Assembly: GCA_003023365.1 (NCBI GenBank)
Contig: PXTG01000026.1
Coordinates: 1 to 42,007, forward strand
Reading direction: 5' to 3'
Source of the DNA: Bacteroidetes bacterium QH_7_62_13
Lineage (GTDB): Bacteria; Bacteroidota; Rhodothermia; Rhodothermales; Salinibacteraceae
Length of the DNA: 42,007 bases
Positions 18,144 through 28,458 of the stretch are shown here, piece by piece. How positions within the stretch are numbered: position 1 is the first letter of the stretch; every line of letters starts with the position of its first letter. Made by a program: the position numbers and the translations under genes. The notes beneath the pieces were generated by a model, which did not search any database, was not told the DNA's origin, and saw nothing but the letters and a program-made list of their open reading frames with translations.

Positions 18144-18923
18144 CTACAACCACCGGCGAACCTTGGACGCCAGGTACCCCCCCGCCGCAAGACCGGCAAG
18201 GGCCATAAGAGACCGCGCGAAGGGGCGCCCCCGGTCCGACTTCGATTCTCCACCGGTTCGATTCTGGATCGTCTCACTGGCCGTCTCGCCGATTTTCTCT
18301 CCCAGTTCGCGCGCTCCCTCGACGGCTTCCGACCGGCGCTCACTGAGGCGCCGCTTGGCTTCACCAGTAGCCTCGCGGAAACGCTCTGAGGCATCCTGAC
18401 TGAACGATCGCGCTTGCTTCGACGCCTGGTCCGCCACCTCCTTCGCCTCCTGGCGCGCTTGCTCACCGGCCTTCTGGGCCTCCTCGGAGAGGCGACGGCG
18501 CGTTTCCTCGGCTCGATTGCGCAAGTTTGTCCCGGACTGAGCGGCTCGCTCCTTCAACCGATCTCGGAGGCGCGCAGCCAGTTCCTGAGCGTCCCCCCCG
18601 ATGCCGCGAAGTCGCTTGCGGACCCGTTCCGAGAGGGGCTGGGGCCGGCGCGGACGGAACGCCTGTGAGGCCCCGTACCCGGCCGCCGCTCCCACTCCGA
18701 CTGTGATGACGACCGTGAAGAGAGGGTGGCGCTGAATCCAGTTCTGAGCACGGGCACGGGCCTCTTCGGCCTTTAGTCGCGTAACTTCTGCCCGCAACTC
18801 TCCCAAAAGTTCGTGCATCTCCTTTCGGGCCTCACCGGAGGCATCCGTTTCGTTTTCGTCCGTATCGGAGGCGGCGTCAGCGTTGGCGTTGGTGTGGTTG
18901 GAGGGCGCAGGACCGTTACTCAT
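18144..18923 (-). CDS. Membrane-anchored amphipathic-helix protein (DUF883/LEA/apolipoprotein-like)
   Basis: The ATG at 18923 gives 259 residues; the 19 upstream residues in the track are an unlikely extension. The layout is an acidic Asn/Asp/Glu N-terminus, a short coiled coil (EARKEMHELLGELRAEVTRL), a hydrophobic segment (LFTVVITVGVGAAAGYGASQ), then about 120 residues of Arg/Glu/Ala-rich repeats of roughly 11 residues without Pro, like LEA or apolipoprotein amphipathic helices, and a second hydrophobic stretch near the C-terminus. Such proteins are often stress-related or membrane-associated; the role is not established. The neighbour immediately upstream is a small membrane protein with a similar acidic N-terminus. 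Confidence 0.75.
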   Translation of the reverse strand: MSNGPAPSNHTNANADAASDTDENETDASGEARKEMHELLGELRAEVTRLKAEEARARAQNWIQRHPLFTVVITVGVGAAAGYGASQAFRPRRPQPLSERVRKRLRGIGGDAQELAARLRDRLKERAAQSGTNLRNRAEETRRRLSEEAQKAGEQARQEAKEVADQASKQARSFSQDASERFREATGEAKRRLSERRSEAVEGARELGEKIGETASETIQNRTGGESKSDRGRPFARSLMALAGLAAGGYLASKVRRWL

Positions 18924-18976
18924 AATTGTGAGGAATGATGTGTGAACAGGAGCTGGAAGGACAACAAATACGGGAT

Positions 18977-19216
18977 TCACTCCCGGAAAAGGGCACCAAC
19001 GAACACGCCTACAGCGAACGCCCCGAGCATGGTCGTGGTCTGGTGCTCTTCCACCCAGAGACGGGCCAAGTCGAGGGCAAAGCCGGAGTCCTCTCCGGGC
19101 ATGGACGTGGAATCACCGTCAATCGAGGGAGAACCCGCTTCCATTTGTTCACGGGACGAATCGGGGGCGGAGGAAAAGGGATCGGGTCCCGTCGTGTCGG
19201 AGCGGTCCGCAGTCAT
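18977..19216 (-). CDS. Small acidic single-pass membrane protein
   Basis: The 79-residue protein has a polar, Asp/Ser/Glu-rich N-terminal 50 residues and one C-terminal hydrophobic segment, TTTMLGAFAVGVFVGALF, ending in RE. It looks like a tail-anchored inner-membrane protein. It precedes the amphipathic-helix gene by 53 bases on the same strand, so the two are probably co-transcribed. The glycine-spaced helix (GAFAVGVFVGALF) resembles the C-terminal anchors of ElaB/YqjD-type proteins, an inference only. No function is known. Confidence 0.65.
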   Translation of the reverse strand: MTADRSDTTGPDPFSSAPDSSREQMEAGSPSIDGDSTSMPGEDSGFALDLARLWVEEHQTTTMLGAFAVGVFVGALFRE

Positions 19217-19414: not shown

Positions 19415-22400
19415 ATGATTCCCACGACCGTGAAAAAAGTTCCCCGTTGGCCCGCTATTCAACTCCTGATCGCGGGTTTCGTCTGTGCAATCCCCACCGA
19501 AAGTGTAGCCCAACGTCCTGCTCCGTCGGCGGAGCGAGCCTACGCCTCGGCGGTCCAGCTCTACGAACAGCAACTGTACGCGGATGCACGGACCGCCTTC
19601 GAATCCTTCGTACGCTCCTATCCCGAACACAGTCAGACCGGACAGGCCGTGTACCTTGGGGCCCGTTCGGCCCTCGCCCAGAACCGGGACCAGGACGCCA
19701 GCCGTCTCTTCGGAACCCTGGAAGACACCTATCCCGGCCACCCACGCGCCCCCGAGGCTCAACTGAGTCTCGCCCAGTACTTTCTAGAGGAAGGCCAGTC
19801 GGCCGAGGCCCGCACCCAGCTTACTGCTATCGTGGAGGATCCCTCTTCTCCGGCCCAGGCCGCCCGAGCCCTGTATCTCCTAGGAAAAAGTGAGCGGGAG
19901 CGCGGCAACCTCAACGAGGCACTCACGAACTTTCAACGGATTACGACCGAGTACGCGCAAGCTGACGTGGCACCGGCCGCCTCCTACGCCGTCGCTGCTA
20001 CTCAGATCCGCCTGGAGCAGTACGATGAGGCGGCGGTCTCCTTCGAGGAGCTGGGCCGGCGATATCCCGATTCTCCCTTCGCCGAGAATCTCGGCACCGC
20101 TCTCGGGGAGGTCTACTACCGGCTGAATGAATACGAGCAGGCCGCCTCCGAGTTACAAGATCGCCTCTCTCAGTTGGAGGGAGACCAGCGGGCCCGGGCC
20201 CAGTTTCTACTGGCGGAATCGTACAATCAACTTCGACGAGGCGAAGAGGCAGTCGGGCGCTACCGGCGTGTGATCGATGAACACCCACGGAGTCCCTACG
20301 TCGGCCCCGCCCAGTACGGACTTGCCCATCACTATCTTCGCTCGAATCAGTACGCGAAAGCCGCTGACCGATTCGCCCTCGTGCGTCGCGAACAATCAGG
20401 CTCCTATGCCGAGCGGTCTGCCTACTATGAGGCCATCAGTCACGCACGAGAGGGGCAGATTGATCGAGCGATTGAACTATATCAGATGGTGGTCGATCAA
20501 CGTCCGGACAGTCGTCTCGCGTCGGAGGCGCTGTACGAAGCCGGCCTTCTGCGCTATCGGCAGGAGAAATACGGTTCCGCCGCCGCCTCTTTTCGAACCC
20601 TGGTCCGCGACTACTCGAATGCTCCTCGCGTCGGAGACGCCTACTACTGGCTCGCCAACGCGTACTTAGCAGATAAATCCCTTGACCGAGCGCTCGACGC
20701 CTACAACCAAGCCATCAAGCGCGACGCGGCGCCCGACTCTCTCCTCGTCGAGGCCCGCTTCCAGAAAGCATGGGCGCAGTACGAAGATGAGCGCTACGAG
20801 CAGGCCGCGGACGGCTTTCTGTCGATCGCTAACAACTTTCCCGACACCCCCCGCGGCCGCGAGGCATTGTTCTGGGGGGGCGACAGTCACTACCAGCGCG
20901 GCAACTTTGACCGGGCCCGAACGCTCTTCCGGCGCTACATCGACGGGAACCCAGACGGATCCCACCTCGCTGGCGCCCGCTACGCCCTCGCCTGGACCCA
21001 CTTTAAGCAGAACCGATACGAAGAGGCCGCCCGGCGTTTCCGCCAATTCTTGGCGGACGACTCGGATATCAATTCGGACGTTCCGTACAAACAGGACGCC
21101 CGTCTACGGCTGGCAGACTCCTACCTTGCCCTGAAGCGATACGAAGATGCGGTGAACGTATACCGACAGGCAAGTGGGGACGGAGCGGACTACGCCCTCT
21201 TTCGGGCGGGAGAAGCTCTGAATTACGCCGACCGCCAGGAGGACGCTCTTCGCAGTTTGAACCGTCTGCTCGAACAATATCCGAATAGCCGATGGCGGCC
21301 GGAGGCGGTGTACCAGATTGCCTCCATCAAATTTCAACAGCAGAACTACGAGGAGGCACGGGCCAGCTACCGCCGGTTTCTTTCAGACAACCCAGATCAT
21401 CCTCTCGCCCCCGAGGCGCGGTACGGGATCGGGGATAGCTACTACAATGCGGGCAATATGACGGAGGCCGTAGGGGCCTATCGGGAGGTCCTGGAAACGT
21501 ATCCCGAGAGTGCCTCCGCAGAGGAAGCAGCCCTGAGCCTCTTCTTCGCCCTGGACGCAGCGGGAGACGCGGACCGGGCTGAGGATTTGATCGGCGAAAT
21601 CAACGGCGCAACGCCCAACACTAATCTTGAAGACCGGCTGCGCTTTGCCCGTGCCAAGGCGGCCTACCAGAGCGGCCAGTCGACGAGGGCACTGAAGCTA
21701 TTTCAGAACTTCGTGCGCACCTCGTCCGCGACCGATCTCCTTCCGGAATCATACTACTATCTCGGGCTCCTCTACGCGGACCAGGACGACGTCCAACCAG
21801 CCAAGAATTACCTCCAACAACTGGTTGAGCAGTATCCGGATAGCGACGTGCAACCTGAAGGCGCCCTTCGACTCGGCGACCTGTACATGGACGACGACGC
21901 CTACCAGAAGGCCGCCGATGCCTACGCGACAGCGGCCGAGAGCGACGCCATCAACGAGGAACTTCGCGCCCAGGCCCGGTACGGCCAAAGCACGGCCCTC
22001 CTGAACCTCGGCCGCAACGAAGACGCTTCAACCTTACTGAATGGGATCCTTGACGAGGAACAAAGCGGTCCCCTCCAGGCGTCCGCTCGGCTTGGGCTCG
22101 CACGTATCCACGAGGACGAAGGGCGGACGGGGGAGGCACTGAGCCTCTACCGCTCCGTCGCCGAGACCTCCGACAGTGAAGCCGGTGCCGAGGCGCTATA
22201 CCGTCTCGGTCGTCTCCTGCGCACTCAGAATCGATCCCAGGAGGCCATTCGGGAACTGGATCGGATGTCCTCCCTGTTCGCTGGCTATCCGGAATGGGTC
22301 GCGCGCTCGCTCCTGGAGCAAGCCCGGGCGTACCGGCAAATGGGAGAGACGGGGCAGGCCGCCCAACTGTACGACGAGGTCGCCGAAACCGCCGAGGAGG

Positions 22401-22417
22401 AGCGGGACGCCCTCTAA
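19415..22417 (+). CDS. Large periplasmic tetratricopeptide-repeat protein
   Basis: This 1000-residue protein starts with a signal peptide (basic KKVPRWP then IQLLIAGFVCAIPTESVA) and is otherwise built of TPR units of about 35-38 residues from residue 40 to the end, with recurring patterns such as AxxLYxQxxYxDAxxxFxxFxxxYPxxxxxxxAxYxLG. More than twenty units are apparent. Such solenoids act as protein-binding scaffolds; in the envelope they resemble long YbgF/CpoB or BamD-like TPR proteins. It is the first gene of the + strand envelope block, with the barrel gene starting 53 bases later, so it may assist that barrel or the TolQ/TolR-like motor. No enzymatic domain is seen. Confidence 0.88.
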   Translation: MIPTTVKKVPRWPAIQLLIAGFVCAIPTESVAQRPAPSAERAYASAVQLYEQQLYADARTAFESFVRSYPEHSQTGQAVYLGARSALAQNRDQDASRLFGTLEDTYPGHPRAPEAQLSLAQYFLEEGQSAEARTQLTAIVEDPSSPAQAARALYLLGKSERERGNLNEALTNFQRITTEYAQADVAPAASYAVAATQIRLEQYDEAAVSFEELGRRYPDSPFAENLGTALGEVYYRLNEYEQAASELQDRLSQLEGDQRARAQFLLAESYNQLRRGEEAVGRYRRVIDEHPRSPYVGPAQYGLAHHYLRSNQYAKAADRFALVRREQSGSYAERSAYYEAISHAREGQIDRAIELYQMVVDQRPDSRLASEALYEAGLLRYRQEKYGSAAASFRTLVRDYSNAPRVGDAYYWLANAYLADKSLDRALDAYNQAIKRDAAPDSLLVEARFQKAWAQYEDERYEQAADGFLSIANNFPDTPRGREALFWGGDSHYQRGNFDRARTLFRRYIDGNPDGSHLAGARYALAWTHFKQNRYEEAARRFRQFLADDSDINSDVPYKQDARLRLADSYLALKRYEDAVNVYRQASGDGADYALFRAGEALNYADRQEDALRSLNRLLEQYPNSRWRPEAVYQIASIKFQQQNYEEARASYRRFLSDNPDHPLAPEARYGIGDSYYNAGNMTEAVGAYREVLETYPESASAEEAALSLFFALDAAGDADRAEDLIGEINGATPNTNLEDRLRFARAKAAYQSGQSTRALKLFQNFVRTSSATDLLPESYYYLGLLYADQDDVQPAKNYLQQLVEQYPDSDVQPEGALRLGDLYMDDDAYQKAADAYATAAESDAINEELRAQARYGQSTALLNLGRNEDASTLLNGILDEEQSGPLQASARLGLARIHEDEGRTGEALSLYRSVAETSDSEAGAEALYRLGRLLRTQNRSQEAIRELDRMSSLFAGYPEWVARSLLEQARAYRQMGETGQAAQLYDEVAETAEEERDAL

Positions 22418-22470
22418 CCCGAACGGCCGCCCACCACACCCGTCACTCACCAAACCACCCGTTCGACTGC

Positions 22471-24148
22471 ATGTCTCTTCCGCGCCTACGCTTCCTTTGC
22501 GTTGTTTGCCTCCTCGCGTGGACACTGCCCGGTCCCGTTCTGGCCCAGGAGGAAGGGGAGACCGACGAGCAGCAGCTTCCAGAGATTGCCCCGCGCGAAA
22601 TCGAGATCCGTGGCGAGCTTCAGCTGTCGTTTCCGTCCCTTCAACGCCAGCCGCTGAGGGGCTTCGCGACTCCCCCCACCATCCCCTCGGTCCCCCCCAC
22701 TCGTACCCCATACGTAAAATCGTACAAACAAGAACTGGACGTCCTTCCCGAAAGCCTGCCTGCTCCCGAATCCGTTTCACAGCCCGTCACCGCTCAAAAA
22801 CCCCCGAAACGAGGGGTCCTGGAGTTTGGGGGCGGCCGCTACCAGTCCCGATTCCTGACTGGTCGACTCTCCCTCCCACTCACCGAGAATCAGCGACTTT
22901 CCTTCCGTGCCGATTACCGGGGAACGGATGGCCACTCGCCCTTCGACGGGGCGGACCTCTCTACCCCCAGCGACGACATCGAGGGACGTGTGCAGTTTGA
23001 ACACCGGCACGAAACGGTCTCGTTCATGGCCGACCTGCACGGAACCGCGGATCGATACACGCTCTACGGCCAGCCCTCTGTGGTCCAGAACCCCAGCGCC
23101 TCGGCCCCCAACCGCACCGGGCGTACCGGGGGGACCACTCTTCAGCTACGGACCCATGGTTCCCTTGAAAGCGACCTCCAGATAAGCTATGACCGGACGC
23201 GATACGAAACGGAGCTCGACCCCACAAGTGACGCAGCGACCGCTTTCTCCGACGGCCGCCTGACCGGACGCGCCGACGTGCGGTTCGACATCTCTAACAC
23301 AGAGGTCCGGCTCAACGTATCCGGTGCCCGCTCGGCGTTGGGGGGCGACGAACCCTCAAGTACGGCCTCCAGCATTGATGGGGGGGTAACGGTCCCGTTC
23401 CTTGATACGGATCGGCTGTCCGTCCGGGGCGGGGGTCGGCTCCTCGTGTTCGACGCGCCCGTGGACCCGTCAATTGCTGGGGCTCCCTCCGCCAGCGCCG
23501 AGTTCATTGTTCCGGAAGGGCGGGCCGAACTTGCGCTGGGAGAGGGCATCACCGGCCACGTTCAAAATACGCCGGGGATAAACCCCCGAGGGCTTGCGGA
23601 CCTCTACACAACCAATCCATTTGCGGAGCATGCCCCCTCCCTCCGTCCCGACCTCTTCACGACCGACGCCGAGGCGGGCCTCACGGCGACCCTCGGGCTC
23701 GTCCGCCTGCAAGCGACGACCGGGTATCGGTACGCCCCCTCCTACCAATTTTTCGAGACTCCCTCCGGCCCTCGCCTTACAGGGGGTGAGGGGCGTCGAG
23801 GCCTCCCTTGGCATCTCGGTCCGAGATGGCGAAATCGTTGGAGATGACGCCGATCTTCCTTACTTTTCTCCTGTGATTGCCGACGCTATGGTGTCGGTTT
23901 CCTTCTCAAACCAGCGCGGCCTCCTCCAAACCACGGGCACGATCAAAAGTCCGCGCCCCACGGATCGGACCGGTTCGAACGAGGTCGATACATACGTGAG
24001 CTTTGACCTGGAGGGCTCCTACGAAGTAACGTCCCTGCTTGACGCGGTCGTCCGTATCCGGAATATTGGACCTACCGCCCCAGAGCACTGGGCCCGGTAC
24101 CCTCGTTCTCCAGGGTCCGTCATGGGCGGATTCCGCATTCACTGGTGA
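22471..24148 (+). CDS. Outer-membrane beta-barrel (TonB-receptor-like) protein, frameshifted near 23782
   Basis: The ATG at 22471 opens a signal peptide (LRFLCVVCLLAWTLPGPVLAQ), then a Pro-rich linker and alternating amphipathic strands (GGGRYQSRFLTGRLSLPL, RLSFRADYRGTDGHSPF). The frame ends at 23847 in unrelated residues, but the next frame continues the barrel with GVEASLGISVRDGE, DAMVSVSFSNQRGLLQTTG and a terminal strand GGFRIHW at 24148. Removing one G from the G5 run at 23782-23786 joins the halves as PRLTGVRGVEASLG, so the simplest reading is one extra base. The C-terminal aromatic (Trp) is typical of BAM-inserted barrels. No plug domain or TonB box was recognised; transported substrate unknown. 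It sits between the TPR gene and the HU-like genes. Confidence 0.75.
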
Positions 24149-24267
24149 GGGAGTCTCTCCGGCACTCCCGCCCCTTTGATGCATTAGTGAACATACCCGG
24201 GTCGATCAGCGAACATACCCACGAGGATTCCCTCCCTGCCTTTCGTTCATAGAACCACAGATCATCC

Positions 24268-24471
24268 ATGAGCACCCCGTCGGCCAAAGATGTTATCAAT
24301 GCGTTTTCCCGCGTGATGCGCGAGAAGCTGGAGAATGGAGAAACCGTCGAGGTCCCGGGCCTCGGCACCTTTTCCGTCGAGCACCGCCCGAGTCGGATGA
24401 CAGAGGATGCCGACGGGGAGAGTTACATGGCCCCGCCCCGCGACGTCGTTACGTTCGACCCAGCTGAATAA
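24268..24471 (+). CDS. Short HU/IHF-like DNA-binding protein
   Basis: The 67-residue protein matches the HU fold in miniature: a helix (DVINAFSRVMREKLENGE), the turn VEVPGLGTFSV, then an arm-like strand region ending VVTFDPAE. HU proteins are usually about 90 residues, so this one lacks the first helix and the C-terminal helix; an in-frame stop a few codons upstream shows the start is real. It could be a reduced HU-like (CCDC81-type) domain rather than a true histone-like protein. It lies 33 bases before the HU-SPOR gene, whose N-terminal domain has the same xxLPxFGTF turn, so they probably function together. Confidence 0.75.
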   Translation: MSTPSAKDVINAFSRVMREKLENGETVEVPGLGTFSVEHRPSRMTEDADGESYMAPPRDVVTFDPAE

Positions 24472-24504
24472 CCCACTCTCTCTCGGCAGGTCTTCCACTC
24501 CGCC

Positions 24505-25893
24505 ATGTCCACCTCGATCCTTTCTGCTCTCGCCGACGAACTGGACGTTTCTCCCGAACAGGCCCAAAAGCTTCTCATCGCGATGTTGCGGGAGGTGCGG
24601 AAACGAGCTCGTCGCGAGGGGGTCCGGCTGCCCGAGTTCGGTACGTTTCGGGAATCCGACGGGCGACTCACGTTTGAGCCGAGCCCCTCCCTGACCCGCG
24701 CCGTCAACCATCGATTCGAGGGGCTCCAATCTGAGGAGCTGGACACGGCTCCCGATACCGACGACGATCAGGATAGCGATGATGGGGGACCTAACACCAT
24801 CACGCTGGGCTATCAAGACTCCGACTGGAGTCCCCTCGACGAAGAATCCTCGTCCGCGACGGCCGACGATGAGGAGGACGAGGAGCCCGATACCGAAGAC
24901 TTTGAAGTGCCCTCCCCGGAGGAGACCGCCGACACCGATGAGTTCCGCCCCTCAGGCCCCGCTGCCCGCGAGTCTGAGCAAGAGGCTGGCCAGCCCGACC
25001 GACTACGCCCAGACACCGACTCGTACGTCGGCGGAGCCGACAGCGACGGACGGGGGCCGGACGAGGCGGAAACTGCTGAACCGCAAGGAGCGGAAAACCG
25101 TCAAACGGCCGCCGACGAAGAGCACGACTCGCTCTCAGACATCTGGGCCTCCGACGAAGAGGAAGAGGAAACGGACGACTTCTCTTTTCCCGACGAAGAT
25201 CCCGCCCCCGCGTCCCCCAGTGCAGCGTCTCCGACCGAATCCACCCCCGAACCGGAGCCAGCTCCCGCCGCCGACCCAGCCGCTCCGTCCGACGCGTCCC
25301 CCCCGGGCGAGACGGTTGATCGAGAGACTCGGGAACCAGCACCTTCCTCAACGGACGCGTCCGCCGACCCCGAAGGCTCGACGGGGGCACGCGTGTTCGC
25401 CGGACTCCTGGTCGTCCTTCTACTCGGCGGTGCCGGGTGGTACGTCCTCGGACAACAGGGAACCCTTCAACCCCCTCGGGAGACCTTCGCACAAGTGAAG
25501 AAGCAAGTTCGCCCACTCCTTGAGTCGGGCTCTCCCGCATCCACCCAGGCGGATGACGGATCCACCGCATCGAATGAGGGCCCGTCCGCAACCGACGAAT
25601 CCGCTGGAGAGTCGGCTGCCGATCAGACATCAAGTACGACACAGGCCAGCGCCGCTCAGGCCATCGATCCGGCGAACGGCGGATGGACAATCGTCGTTGG
25701 CTCACGTACCGAGCGCGCCACTGCCCAGTCCCTTGCCGACAAGTACCGCGCGGTGTTTGAGCCCCGTCACAGGCCGACGCGCAGCGATTTCTCGAAAATG
25801 CCACCCAGGAGCTACCGGAGGGGGCCTGGACCCTCGACCTTTAGTTTGTGCTTCCATAGATCCTGTTCTTTTCCCGATCCACCGTCTACATGA
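24505..25893 (+). CDS. HU-like domain / acidic linker / TM / SPOR fusion, C-terminus frameshifted
   Basis: Residues 1-80 form an HU-like (HU-CCDC81-type) domain with EQAQKLLIAMLREVRKRARREG and VRLPEFGTFRE. A very acidic, low-complexity linker follows to about 290, then one transmembrane helix (VFAGLLVVLLLGGAGWYVLG, about 295-313), another Ser/Ala/Thr linker, and a SPOR domain start at about 391 (GGWTIVVGSRTERATAQSLADKYRAVF). Near 25761-25770 the frame is lost; frame 3 holds the expected SPOR end, SQADAQRFLENATQELPEG, finishing with TAG at 25842-25844. About 25-30 residues of the domain seem missing. By family knowledge SPOR binds denuded septal peptidoglycan, so the intact protein would span the inner membrane with the HU-like part in the cytoplasm. 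TolQ starts at 25890. Confidence 0.82.
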   Translation: MSTSILSALADELDVSPEQAQKLLIAMLREVRKRARREGVRLPEFGTFRESDGRLTFEPSPSLTRAVNHRFEGLQSEELDTAPDTDDDQDSDDGGPNTITLGYQDSDWSPLDEESSSATADDEEDEEPDTEDFEVPSPEETADTDEFRPSGPAARESEQEAGQPDRLRPDTDSYVGGADSDGRGPDEAETAEPQGAENRQTAADEEHDSLSDIWASDEEEEETDDFSFPDEDPAPASPSAASPTESTPEPEPAPAADPAAPSDASPPGETVDRETREPAPSSTDASADPEGSTGARVFAGLLVVLLLGGAGWYVLGQQGTLQPPRETFAQVKKQVRPLLESGSPASTQADDGSTASNEGPSATDESAGESAADQTSSTTQASAAQAIDPANGGWTIVVGSRTERATAQSLADKYRAVFEPRHRPTRSDFSKMPPRSYRRGPGPSTFSLCFHRSCSFPDPPST

Positions 25894-26600
25894 TCCTCCT
25901 TCAACAAGTTGACAGTGTCGCTTCGGACTCCGTGCAGGCCGCAGCCGCTCAGGGAAATTCAGTACTCGACGTTCTGGTGTTGGGGGGATGGGTGATGGTT
26001 CCCCTGGTCCTGCTCTCAATTCTCACGATTTACCTACTCGTCGAACGGCTCATCACGATCCGGAATGCCTCGTCCAATCCTGAGGCCATCACGGATCGGG
26101 TCCGGGACTATGTGCGCAACGGCGACGTGGAGGGGGCGATCACGTACTGCCGAAAGAAAGATGTCCCGATTACCCGAATTCTGAAACAAGGACTTGAGCG
26201 GCTCGGGCGTCCGATCTCTGAAATTCAGGACGCGGTTCAGGCCGCCGGGAAGCACGAAACCTATGAACTGGAGAAGCGCACCAACCTGCTCGCAAGCATT
26301 GCCGGGATCGCTCCCATGCTCGGGTTTTTCGGCACCGTCCTCGGCATGATCAAGGCCTTCCAGGAAATTCAGAACCTGCAGGGAAACGTAAACCCGAGTG
26401 TCCTCGCCGGAGGAATCTGGGAAGCCCTCGTCACCACCGCCGCCGGCTTGCTTGTGGGCATTCTCGCCCTCTTCGCCTATAATTTCCTGATTGGCCGCAT
26501 CCGACGCCTTACCAACGACATGGAACGGTCGGCCACGGACTTCATCGATCTGCTGCAGGAACCCGTTTCGTCCGGCCAGCGCAGTGAGACCCTCGGGTAA
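25890..26600 (+). CDS. tolQ: MotA/TolQ/ExbB proton-channel protein
   Basis: The 236-residue protein has three transmembrane helices: about 25-50 (VLVLGGWVMVPLVLLSILTIYLL), 132-155 and 178-202. TM2 contains LASIAGIAPMLGFFGTVLGMI and TM3 WEALVTTAAGLLVGILALFAYN, both hallmark motifs of TolQ/ExbB. Together with the TolR/ExbD partner 53 bases downstream it forms a proton-driven motor for Tol-Pal or TonB-type energy transfer. Which of TolQ and ExbB it is cannot be settled by sequence alone; the symbol is chosen because of the SPOR/TPR neighbours. No tolA, tolB, pal or tonB is in the window. Confidence 0.9.
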   Translation: MILLQQVDSVASDSVQAAAAQGNSVLDVLVLGGWVMVPLVLLSILTIYLLVERLITIRNASSNPEAITDRVRDYVRNGDVEGAITYCRKKDVPITRILKQGLERLGRPISEIQDAVQAAGKHETYELEKRTNLLASIAGIAPMLGFFGTVLGMIKAFQEIQNLQGNVNPSVLAGGIWEALVTTAAGLLVGILALFAYNFLIGRIRRLTNDMERSATDFIDLLQEPVSSGQRSETLG

Positions 26601-26652
26601 ATCCGCTCCTGGCCCCCCACTTCTTGCCTCCTTCATTCATCCGGCCGTCCCT

Positions 26653-27060
26653 ATGTCCCTCGACTTCTCCCCGTCGCAGGAGCCGATGACCGACATCAGC
26701 CTCGCGGGCATGACGGATGTCGTGCTCCTCCTCCTCATCTTTTTCCTCTTAACGTCCAGTTTTGTCCCGCAGATGGGGATACAGGTTACCCTCCCACAGG
26801 TTGATAGCTCTGCGCCGGTCGAGGAGCAATCCGTTACCGTCGCCCTTACCGAAGATGGGTCCTACTACGTCAACGGCTCACCGGTCTCTGGGTCCCGCCT
26901 TCTCGACGAAATTCGAGCTGCGCGGACTGGGCAGCAGACCTTGGTCCTCCGGGCCGACGAGGGGGCAACAATCGGTCAATTTGCCTCGGTGGCCTCCGCT
27001 GCCCGGGCCCTGGACATGCGTGTCTTAATGGCCACCGAGCGTTCCGATCGGTCCCGCTGA
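26653..27060 (+). CDS. tolR: ExbD/TolR-type biopolymer transport protein
   Basis: From the ATG at 26653 the protein is 135 residues; the track's upstream extension comes from another frame context. A single transmembrane helix, MTDVVLLLLIFFLLTSSFV, contains the essential Asp22, and is followed by MGIQVTLPQVDSS and a periplasmic domain ending in the VASAARALDMRVLMATE segment typical of ExbD/TolR. Asp22 is the residue that takes up the proton in the TolQ/ExbB channel. Its gene directly follows the TolQ/ExbB gene. Confidence 0.9.
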   Translation: MSLDFSPSQEPMTDISLAGMTDVVLLLLIFFLLTSSFVPQMGIQVTLPQVDSSAPVEEQSVTVALTEDGSYYVNGSPVSGSRLLDEIRAARTGQQTLVLRADEGATIGQFASVASAARALDMRVLMATERSDRSR

Positions 27061-27157
27061 CGGCCCGGGAGAAAACTCACGCGTTGCCGCCCACGACGAC
27101 GTTCCGCTCCTCCCTGCTCGCTTCTTCTCTCCAGTCACAAATCTGTCTTCCTCAACC

Positions 27158-27718
27158 ATGCTTGGACACTTCCAACGACAGAAAGCACATCATTACTTCG
27201 ACCTCATCGACCAGGACGAAGACGGTTACATCGACGGAGATGACTTTGAGCTACAGGCCAGCCGCCTCGCCGACCGACGAGATTTGTCGGATGAGGGACG
27301 TGAGGCGTTAACGGAGCAAATGATGGCGTGGTGGGAGCAGCTCTGCGCCACCGTCGATGTAAACCAGGACGACCGAGTGAGCCGGGAAGAGTGGGCTCAC
27401 TTCTGGAAAGCGGTCAATGCCTCCGTCGAGGAGGGAACGGAGGAAGAAAGAGACCAGATGCTCGCTAGCCTAGAGCAGGCCGGGACCGCAACATTTCAGA
27501 CAATAGACACCACGGGCAGTGGTGAGATCACGAAGGACGAATTCGAGAACTGGCTTGCAGCCTGGGGCGCCGAGGGGAGTGGGGAGGCCTTCGACCGCCT
27601 CGATCGGTCGGGAAACGGGCACCTCACTCGTGAGGACCTCGTTGAGGCGACGAAGGAGTTTTACCTATCCGACGACCCCGATGCGCCGGGCACTGTTCTC
27701 TACGGCATGCTTCAGTGA
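27158..27718 (+). CDS. Four-EF-hand calcium-binding protein (calerythrin-like)
   Basis: The 186-residue protein has four EF-hand loops with acidic residues at loop positions 1 and 12: DQDEDGYIDGDD (18-29), DVNQDDRVSREE (67-78), DTTGSGEITKDE (117-128) and DRSGNGHLTRED (149-160). There is no signal peptide, so it is likely cytoplasmic. The overall size and pairing resemble bacterial calerythrin and sarcoplasmic calcium-binding proteins, which buffer or sense Ca2+. The C-terminal SDDPDAPGTVLYGML segment follows the same pattern in calerythrins. It is the last gene of the + strand envelope block. Confidence 0.88.
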   Translation: MLGHFQRQKAHHYFDLIDQDEDGYIDGDDFELQASRLADRRDLSDEGREALTEQMMAWWEQLCATVDVNQDDRVSREEWAHFWKAVNASVEEGTEEERDQMLASLEQAGTATFQTIDTTGSGEITKDEFENWLAAWGAEGSGEAFDRLDRSGNGHLTREDLVEATKEFYLSDDPDAPGTVLYGMLQ

Positions 27719-27851: not shown

Positions 27852-28397
27852 CTATTGTATCACGGTGACTGTACTCCGAGCTACGAAGGCCCCCTCATAC
27901 TGCTCCTGGACGAATGATCGGGCCTCCTCCGCATCCTCTCGTTGCGCAAACGCTCCCAGTCGCACACGGTAGTACGGCTGGGAGTACTCGACGACAATCG
28001 GTGTATCGTCCCGGAAAAGATCAGCGGGTGCGTCGGACTGCACCTCTTGCCACCACTGCCGGACGCGCTCGCGAAAGTCCTCGGCGGCCTTCTGATCCTG
28101 TGCCGAGAAGACTTGGATCCTGTACCCCTCAACCGTCTGCCGCACGCCCTCCTGTGCACGCCCCTTCATGAGACGCTGAGGGACCTGATGGGACACTTCA
28201 ACGGCCTGCTCGGGCGCCTCCACCGGATAGGCAGAGACGTCGAAGGTCTCGGCCCGGGCAATCGTCGCCCGTGCTTGCCCCTCCGAATTCGACGCGTCGG
28301 TGTCGGTCTCCGCCCCATCGGTACTTGCCTGCGGCCCGCTGCAGGCGCCGATCAGGGGAATAACAATCGCTAGCAGAAGGAGTCGACGAAGGGTCAT
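27852..28397 (-). CDS. SPOR-domain lipoprotein
   Basis: The ATG at 28397 gives 181 residues starting MTLRRLLLLAIVIPLIGAC, a lipoprotein signal with the lipid-attached Cys19. An acidic Asp/Ser/Thr linker follows, then a SPOR domain from about residue 90 (GYRIQVFSAQDQKAAEDFRE ... PYYRVRLGAFAQREDAEEARSF) to the end. SPOR domains bind glycan strands lacking stem peptides at the division site. The protein is therefore probably a membrane-anchored septal or cell-wall binding factor. It converges on the EF-hand gene and is only 2 kb from the HU-SPOR fusion. Confidence 0.87.
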   Translation of the reverse strand: MTLRRLLLLAIVIPLIGACSGPQASTDGAETDTDASNSEGQARATIARAETFDVSAYPVEAPEQAVEVSHQVPQRLMKGRAQEGVRQTVEGYRIQVFSAQDQKAAEDFRERVRQWWQEVQSDAPADLFRDDTPIVVEYSQPYYRVRLGAFAQREDAEEARSFVQEQYEGAFVARSTVTVIQ

Positions 28398-28458
28398 TGG
28401 CTGGTGCTTCGGGGAAGCTTGGGGAATACATCTAAGGGAGATCAACGTCTTAGGGAGA

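Follow-up and report, generated by a model that had tools for sequence, protein, structure and literature searches.

A conserved Bacteroidota envelope locus with a TolQ-TolR-like motor, a predicted plug-less barrel and a SPOR-domain protein: a candidate Tol/Ton-type trans-envelope machine

Contig PXTG01000026.1 of Bacteroidetes bacterium QH_7_62_13, a member of the Rhodothermales, carries a co-directional block of envelope genes encoding a giant periplasmic tetratricopeptide-repeat (TPR) protein, an outer-membrane barrel, two proteins with HU-like domains, the second of which (HU-SPOR) crosses the inner membrane towards a C-terminal SPOR domain, and a TolQ-TolR-like motor pair. We propose, with a probability of roughly 0.45, that this block represents the Rhodothermales version of an ancient trans-envelope machine, of the Tol/Ton type and spread throughout Bacteroidota, which draws the outer membrane inward via the barrel and is anchored on septal glycan. 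More narrowly, and tentatively, the locus may be the missing Bacteroidota equivalent of Tol-Pal, in which the motor and a dedicated TonB would pull a plug-less barrel, not TolB-Pal, at SPOR-marked septa. The anatomy of the system is well supported by gene content, gene order, phylum-wide conservation, barrel type, the absence of a plug in the barrel model, motif conservation, the identity of the transducer and the acidic character of the HU domains.

The window (the whole stretch of DNA that was analysed, 42,007 nucleotides) is contig 26 of a metagenome-assembled genome (MAG) that is 62% complete and consists of 118 contigs; the nearest relatives used for comparison belong to the same genus. 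The genes named in a first-pass annotation of the window (TPR, barrel, mini-HU, an HU-like protein with acidic linker and transmembrane (TM) helix, TolQ/TolR and an EF-hand gene, all co-directional) were each confirmed among its open reading frames (ORFs):

19415..22417 (+): giant periplasmic TPR protein, 1000 amino acids, with a signal peptide and CpoB/YbgF-type TPR repeats (TIGR02795)
22471..24148 (+): outer-membrane barrel gene, predicted to be plug-less and 22-stranded, of the TonB-dependent transporter (TBDT) type; frame broken near 23770
22576..22617 (+): LPEIAPREIEIRGE, the conserved TonB-box-like N-terminal motif of the barrel, directly after the signal peptide
24268..24471 (+): miniHU, 67 amino acids, the leading HU half of a tandem HU module that is split here over two genes; PF00216 match (E=5.9e-13)
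24505..25844 (+): HU-SPOR, with an N-terminal HU domain (cytoplasmic), an acidic linker, a TM helix (25393-25458), a periplasmic linker and a SPOR remnant
25678-25761 (+): the SPOR remnant of HU-SPOR, with the out-of-frame C-terminus at 25773-25844
25890..26600 (+): TolQ/ExbB-like proton-channel subunit; PF01618 (MotA_ExbB) match (E=1.1e-33)
26653..27060 (+): TolR/ExbD-like subunit; PF02472 (ExbD) match (E=3.5e-23), TM aspartate in MTDVVLLLLIFFLL (26710-26751)
27158..27718 (+): EF-hand protein, downstream neighbour, with EF-hand Pfam matches

Conservation of the locus across the phylum

For comparison at the level of the order, we used 28 related block loci from many families of Rhodothermales. 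HU-SPOR is present in all 28, TolQ, TolR and the barrel in 26 each, the TPR protein in 25 and miniHU in 24, and the order TPR-barrel-miniHU-HU/SPOR-TolQ-TolR is maintained in about 25 of the 28 loci, far above chance. Related versions of the block were found across the phylum Bacteroidota, including same-class families f16-f18, which we tentatively label 'Balneolales-like' (the TPR gene is unlinked from the block in f17 and f18). Of the 51 Ignavibacteria-type loci whose downstream sequence extends for 7 kb or more, 39 read TPR-barrel-HUSPOR-TolQ-TolR-TonB, loci of families f20, f36 and f39 read TPR-barrel-SPOR-TolQ-TolR-TonB, and f41 has the same arrangement without a SPOR gene. Conservation of the neighbourhood had been set beforehand as a test of the first-pass proposal, and the order holds both in the 28-locus set and far beyond Rhodothermales. 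None of the 28 related loci contains a homologue of the EF-hand gene, which had been counted as part of the block, and we rejected that gene as a component of the system because it occurs in the window only. Full-text searches of the accessible literature found no description of the locus.

Full-length relatives of the giant TPR protein (E<=1e-60) were found in 107/148 sampled genomes of the phylum, nearly all in single copy. Against TIGR02795 (tol_pal_ybgF) the window protein scores 370.8 bits (cut-off 90.1), and it is best-scoring as YbgF/CpoB, a score that we do not read as orthology since TPR models cross-match.

The motor pair and its transducer

The closest PDB sequence matches of the TolQ-like protein are TolQ chains (9avi_A, E=4.8e-12), with the channel threonines of GTVxG and TTAxG aligned, and the TolR-like protein aligns with ExbD/TolR chains and retains the conserved TM aspartate; as both fall below the NCBI equivalog cut-offs for tolQ and tolR, the assignment is made at the family level only. 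TolB and Pal had not been visible to the first-pass annotation, and the wider search agrees: a TolB_N domain is absent in 39/40 genomes searched, with one marginal match in G028, and no Pal-type (OmpA-domain) gene lies in the block. A competing tolQR linked to tolB or pal elsewhere in the genome, which would speak against the proposal, was looked for and not found. The remaining ExbB-type genes of complete Rhodothermales fall into an ExbB-ExbD set, with an isocitrate dehydrogenase-like gene next to it, and a MotAB-like pair, whose neighbour is an OmpA-domain gene. Neither was retained as a candidate: the ExbB-ExbD set of L053 was rejected as a Tol system as no Tol/Pal genes adjoin it, and the MotAB-like third pair was rejected as TolQR as it adjoins the OmpA-domain gene. 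In L053 (G000:C17, 3352-5121) the second ExbB-type motor of that genome reads ExbB, a possible short ORF and ExbD, followed by the isocitrate dehydrogenase-like gene, with no TonB adjoining. A published survey likewise reports that no tol-pal loci were found in Bacteroidetes (PMC12204202).

The first-pass annotation had also seen no TolA. This holds for the block in the window, but in relatives a TonB/TolA-like transducer gene lies directly 3′ of tolR (Balneolales-like families, L091-L097; Ignavibacteria, L109 and L118-L123; and other families). In Rhodothermales the transducer gene is unlinked, and alignment of the family recovered it in 34/41 relatives, usually with E<1e-50 and in one copy per genome, save for one weak extra match. 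Across the phylum the family was found in 68 sampled genomes, 67 of which also carry the giant TPR protein; in 32/32 genomes of nine other families it and the TPR gene are no more than 12 kb apart, which holds for no Rhodothermales. The TM helix contains S/T-x3-H in 14/15 members and is followed by a conserved EVEFG strand, a spacer rich in Pro and Glu, and a TonB C-terminal domain. According to PMC12204202, a Ser-His motif and a strand (the 'motor box') are the motor-contact features of TolA and TonB, and the EVEFG strand sits at the position given there for the motor box. HU-SPOR was also considered as a TolA substitute and was rejected, given that the transducer family was found and that the HU-SPOR TM helix has no obvious Ser-His motif. 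Upstream of the unlinked TonB gene in L194 and L196 there is a secreted protein with R[VI]AKYGADFLAGG, possibly PorV-like.

A TonB-dependent-receptor-type barrel with a conserved tail

The barrel was modelled with AlphaFold2 on the relative L033, using a 29-row alignment. The model (predicted local distance difference test, pLDDT, of 82) has about 22 strands, with residues 1-77 disordered; it contains no plug domain, no barrel member has a plug Pfam match, and PF00593 is matched by 4/29 members. In a Foldseek search of the model against the PDB, the best 50 matches are all TBDTs (best E=6.7e-17, TM-score to query 0.58-0.67). The barrel is thus predicted to be 22-stranded and of the TonB-dependent-receptor type, without a plug. 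Its most conserved segment is formed by residues 4-16 of the disordered tail (LPEIAPQEIEIRG in L033; LPEIAPREIEIRG in the window), where the mean majority-residue frequency is 0.84, as against 0.36-0.42 in the barrel itself. The tail motif takes the form LP[ED]IxP..IEIRG, and Ignavibacteria and f39 carry LPDFVITG or LPEFVITG at the equivalent position, sequences that come near classical TonB boxes. This conservation suggests that the N-terminal tail may be a TonB-contact site on a barrel that has nothing to unplug.

A TBDT-type barrel together with a TonB-family transducer would also be expected of a second, nutrient-importing Ton system, in which the barrel is a degenerate TBDT and the motor serves TBDTs generally. 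Rhodothermales genomes do encode several TonB_C proteins, with only two Ton/Tol-type motors plus the MotAB-like pair. Several features nevertheless make uptake improbable as the function of the block: the plug, the mobile element of TonB-dependent uptake, is absent; over the phylum there is a single dedicated TonB and a barrel in near-single copy, as opposed to the usual many receptors; the genes are linked to SPOR and to a CpoB-like TPR protein; and the separate ExbB-ExbD set is present.

The TPR and barrel genes form the pair that is retained most widely, even where the motor and SPOR are gone (f28, f26 and f33). Together with the lack of a plug in the barrel model and a weak resemblance of the TPR protein to the Slam TPR (E=1.6e-16, no stretch passing), this speaks for TonB-powered export, where the TPR protein and plug-less barrel would form a secretion channel energised by the motor and SPOR would serve for positioning only. 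The block shares a large periplasmic TPR protein and an outer-membrane barrel with the exporters BcsC, PgaA, AlgK/AlgE and Slam, but its barrel is separate, with matches to TBDTs and not to the export barrels of 16-18 strands, and it adds a motor, a transducer and SPOR. It also lacks synthase genes, and none of the genes conserved across the 28 loci encodes a synthase, a glycosyltransferase or an obvious substrate. None of these exporters is known to include a dedicated TonB, a tail resembling a TonB box or a SPOR protein, which counts further against export, and we regard this explanation as unlikely.

The HU domains and the SPOR protein

MiniHU is a separate 67-residue gene in Rhodothermales and Balneolales-like families, while in L050 and many other Bacteroidota it is fused with HU-SPOR in one protein; the two genes are therefore a split tandem-HU module. 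A model of the fused protein has two confident HU-like domains (the second, HU2, without a visible arm), a TM helix and a SPOR domain; the topology puts HU in the cytoplasm and SPOR in the periplasm. In a structure search the SPOR fold of the model matches the RlpA SPOR domain bound to denuded glycan. This architecture is that of the HU-CCDC81-SPOR proteins of Bacteroidota (PF18174/PF18175 with PF05036), which have tandem HU domains, one TM helix and a C-terminal SPOR domain; in contrast to them, HU1 is separate in Rhodothermales and Balneolales-like families, the acidic linker is long and the window copy is broken. The SPOR domain that had been assigned to the HU-like TM protein in the first-pass annotation is intact in relatives (counts of 17/17 aligned relatives and 19/19, with HU-CCDC81_bac_2 in 11/17). 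In the window copy it is about 30 residues short, with a frameshift near 25761-25773, and because of this truncation and frameshift the Pfam scan of that copy gave no SPOR match.

The features by which HU binds DNA, a basic body and a proline-tipped GRNP beta-arm, were looked for in both HU halves and are absent. The median isoelectric point (pI) is 4.6 for miniHU and 5.2 for the HU domain of HU-SPOR, and the DNA-intercalating GRNP arm tip is found in 0/24 and 0/27 members, respectively. In f30, f36, f39 and f40 loci the TM-SPOR part is kept and the HU part is missing. On the acidity and the missing arm tip we rejected DNA binding by the HU pair, and the HU module is more likely an accessory that binds protein rather than DNA, a possibility that the first-pass annotation had raised. 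Structurally, the tandem HU model is matched best by chain 8snb_1K, from a sea-urchin sperm doublet microtubule. The same annotation had also suggested that the block could link the nucleoid, or a cytoplasmic partner, to septal peptidoglycan. In a nucleoid-to-septum link, a DNA-binding HU pair would tie the position of the chromosome to the septal wall by way of the membrane protein. The HU fold, the Pfam Bac_DNA_binding matches and the HU-in, SPOR-out topology are what this idea has in its favour, and we give it very little credence because neither HU half has the DNA-intercalating tip, both are acidic, and several lineages do without them.

A proposed mechanism

In the trans-envelope machine that we propose, TolQ-TolR would form a proton-driven inner-membrane motor, presumably of 5:2 stoichiometry, driving a dedicated TonB/TolA-like transducer that spans the periplasm. 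The transducer would grip and pull the TonB-box-like N-terminal tail of the barrel and, as there is no plug, force would be transmitted to the barrel and the outer membrane instead of opening a pore. Septal (denuded) peptidoglycan may be where the single-pass SPOR protein anchors the machine, the giant CpoB-like TPR protein may bridge the barrel, the motor and cell-wall enzymes, and the HU pair would be a cytoplasmic protein-protein module, specific to certain lineages, and not a clamp on DNA. As a likely outcome, the outer membrane would invaginate and be tethered where the cell divides, a task that Tol-Pal performs in other bacteria; we favour this over export, uptake and the remaining rivals because the force, with no plug to move, acts on the membrane. 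Of the Tol-Pal-like division machine suggested by the first-pass annotation, a Tol/Ton-like trans-envelope machine thus stands, on the conserved gene order and the absence of a tolB/pal-linked tolQR; the nucleoid link falls away, and the role in division is one that we infer.

A number of observations weigh against this mechanism. The transducer family was searched for and not found in the window's 62%-complete genome, and OmpA-domain proteins are encoded elsewhere in Rhodothermales genomes. Loci of f30 and f40 retain TPR-barrel-SPOR-TonB and have no TolQR, so that the transducer must borrow another motor there; in f30 (e.g. L321; genomes G064 and G095) it must share the sole motor, because each genome carries one MotA/ExbB gene. 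The parts are also separable, since f25 genomes have HU-SPOR without the giant TPR protein and without the TonB family of the block, and only the TPR-barrel pair stays together in f28. Pairs of a TPR protein and a barrel are typical of polysaccharide or lipoprotein export as well, and no localisation, phenotype or interaction data on the block proteins were found. Finally, a published proposal gives the part of a Tol-Pal equivalent in Bacteroidota to PorE, a CpoB-TolB-Pal fusion lipoprotein that would fill the same gap (PMC12204202). PorE is a different protein from those of the block, and the accessible part of that source names no PorE motor locus and makes no mention of SPOR.

The separability of parts in f25, f28 and f30, along with the unlinked TonB of Rhodothermales and the unlinked TPR gene of f17 and f18, could also mean that the block is a loose neighbourhood of unrelated envelope genes with no joint function. 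Such an arrangement is poorly reconciled with the equal gene order in several classes, the fusion of the miniHU and HU-SPOR genes, the 32/32 linkage of TPR and TonB in nine families and their co-occurrence in 67/68 genomes, and we consider it very unlikely.

Comparison with known systems

Tol-Pal (TolQRA, TolB, Pal and CpoB) and the block have in common a TolQ-TolR-type motor, a TonB/TolA-like transducer, a CpoB/YbgF-type TPR protein, a cell-wall-binding partner and a single conserved locus. They differ in that the block has no TolB or Pal, its outer-membrane partner is a 22-strand, predicted plug-less barrel, a SPOR membrane protein is added and the transducer is unlinked in Rhodothermales. 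With the Ton system (ExbB-ExbD-TonB and TBDT) the block shares the motor family, the TonB C-terminal domain and a TBDT-type barrel with a TonB-box-like N-terminus; unlike that system, its barrel lacks a plug in the model, its barrel and its transducer are each single and dedicated, and TPR and SPOR genes are linked. The Myxococcus Agl-Glt gliding machinery is a further likeness, as it too brings together a TolQR-type motor, TonB-domain proteins, outer-membrane barrels and TPR proteins. Matches to the GltJ and GltC models are weak; the block has no membership of Agl-Glt at the sequence level, and SPOR and a TBDT-type barrel are not known to be part of Glt.

Neighbouring genes and state of the assembly

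The block is adjoined by divergent YtxH/apolipoprotein-like membrane proteins at 18144-18980 (-) and 18977-19216 (-), with counterparts in 22/28 and 13/28 loci, respectively. PfkB kinase and FolB genes are frequent upstream neighbours in the 28 loci, and a convergent downstream gene, putatively ComM-like, is present in 14 of them, mostly adjoining tolR. A second SPOR-domain protein, a putative lipoprotein, is encoded convergent to the block at 27852-28445 (-), with no counterpart at that place in the other loci.

In the window the first frame of the barrel ORF stops at 23847, and a second frame encodes the C-terminus to 24148. A LolA-like ORF at 1678-2232 seems to be interrupted like the barrel and SPOR genes, each of the three showing an internal deletion with a frameshift. 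The barrel and SPOR frames are intact in relatives. In a draft MAG the breaks in all three genes are most simply taken as assembly errors, with decay as the alternative.

Significance

Bacteroidota is a major diderm phylum with no recognised tol-pal locus (PMC12204202). A widespread, near-single-copy locus of the kind described here makes outer-membrane constriction and tethering in Bacteroidota testable gene by gene. If a barrel with a TonB box and no plug is indeed at work in it, this would show that TonB-type force can act directly on the membrane instead of powering import.

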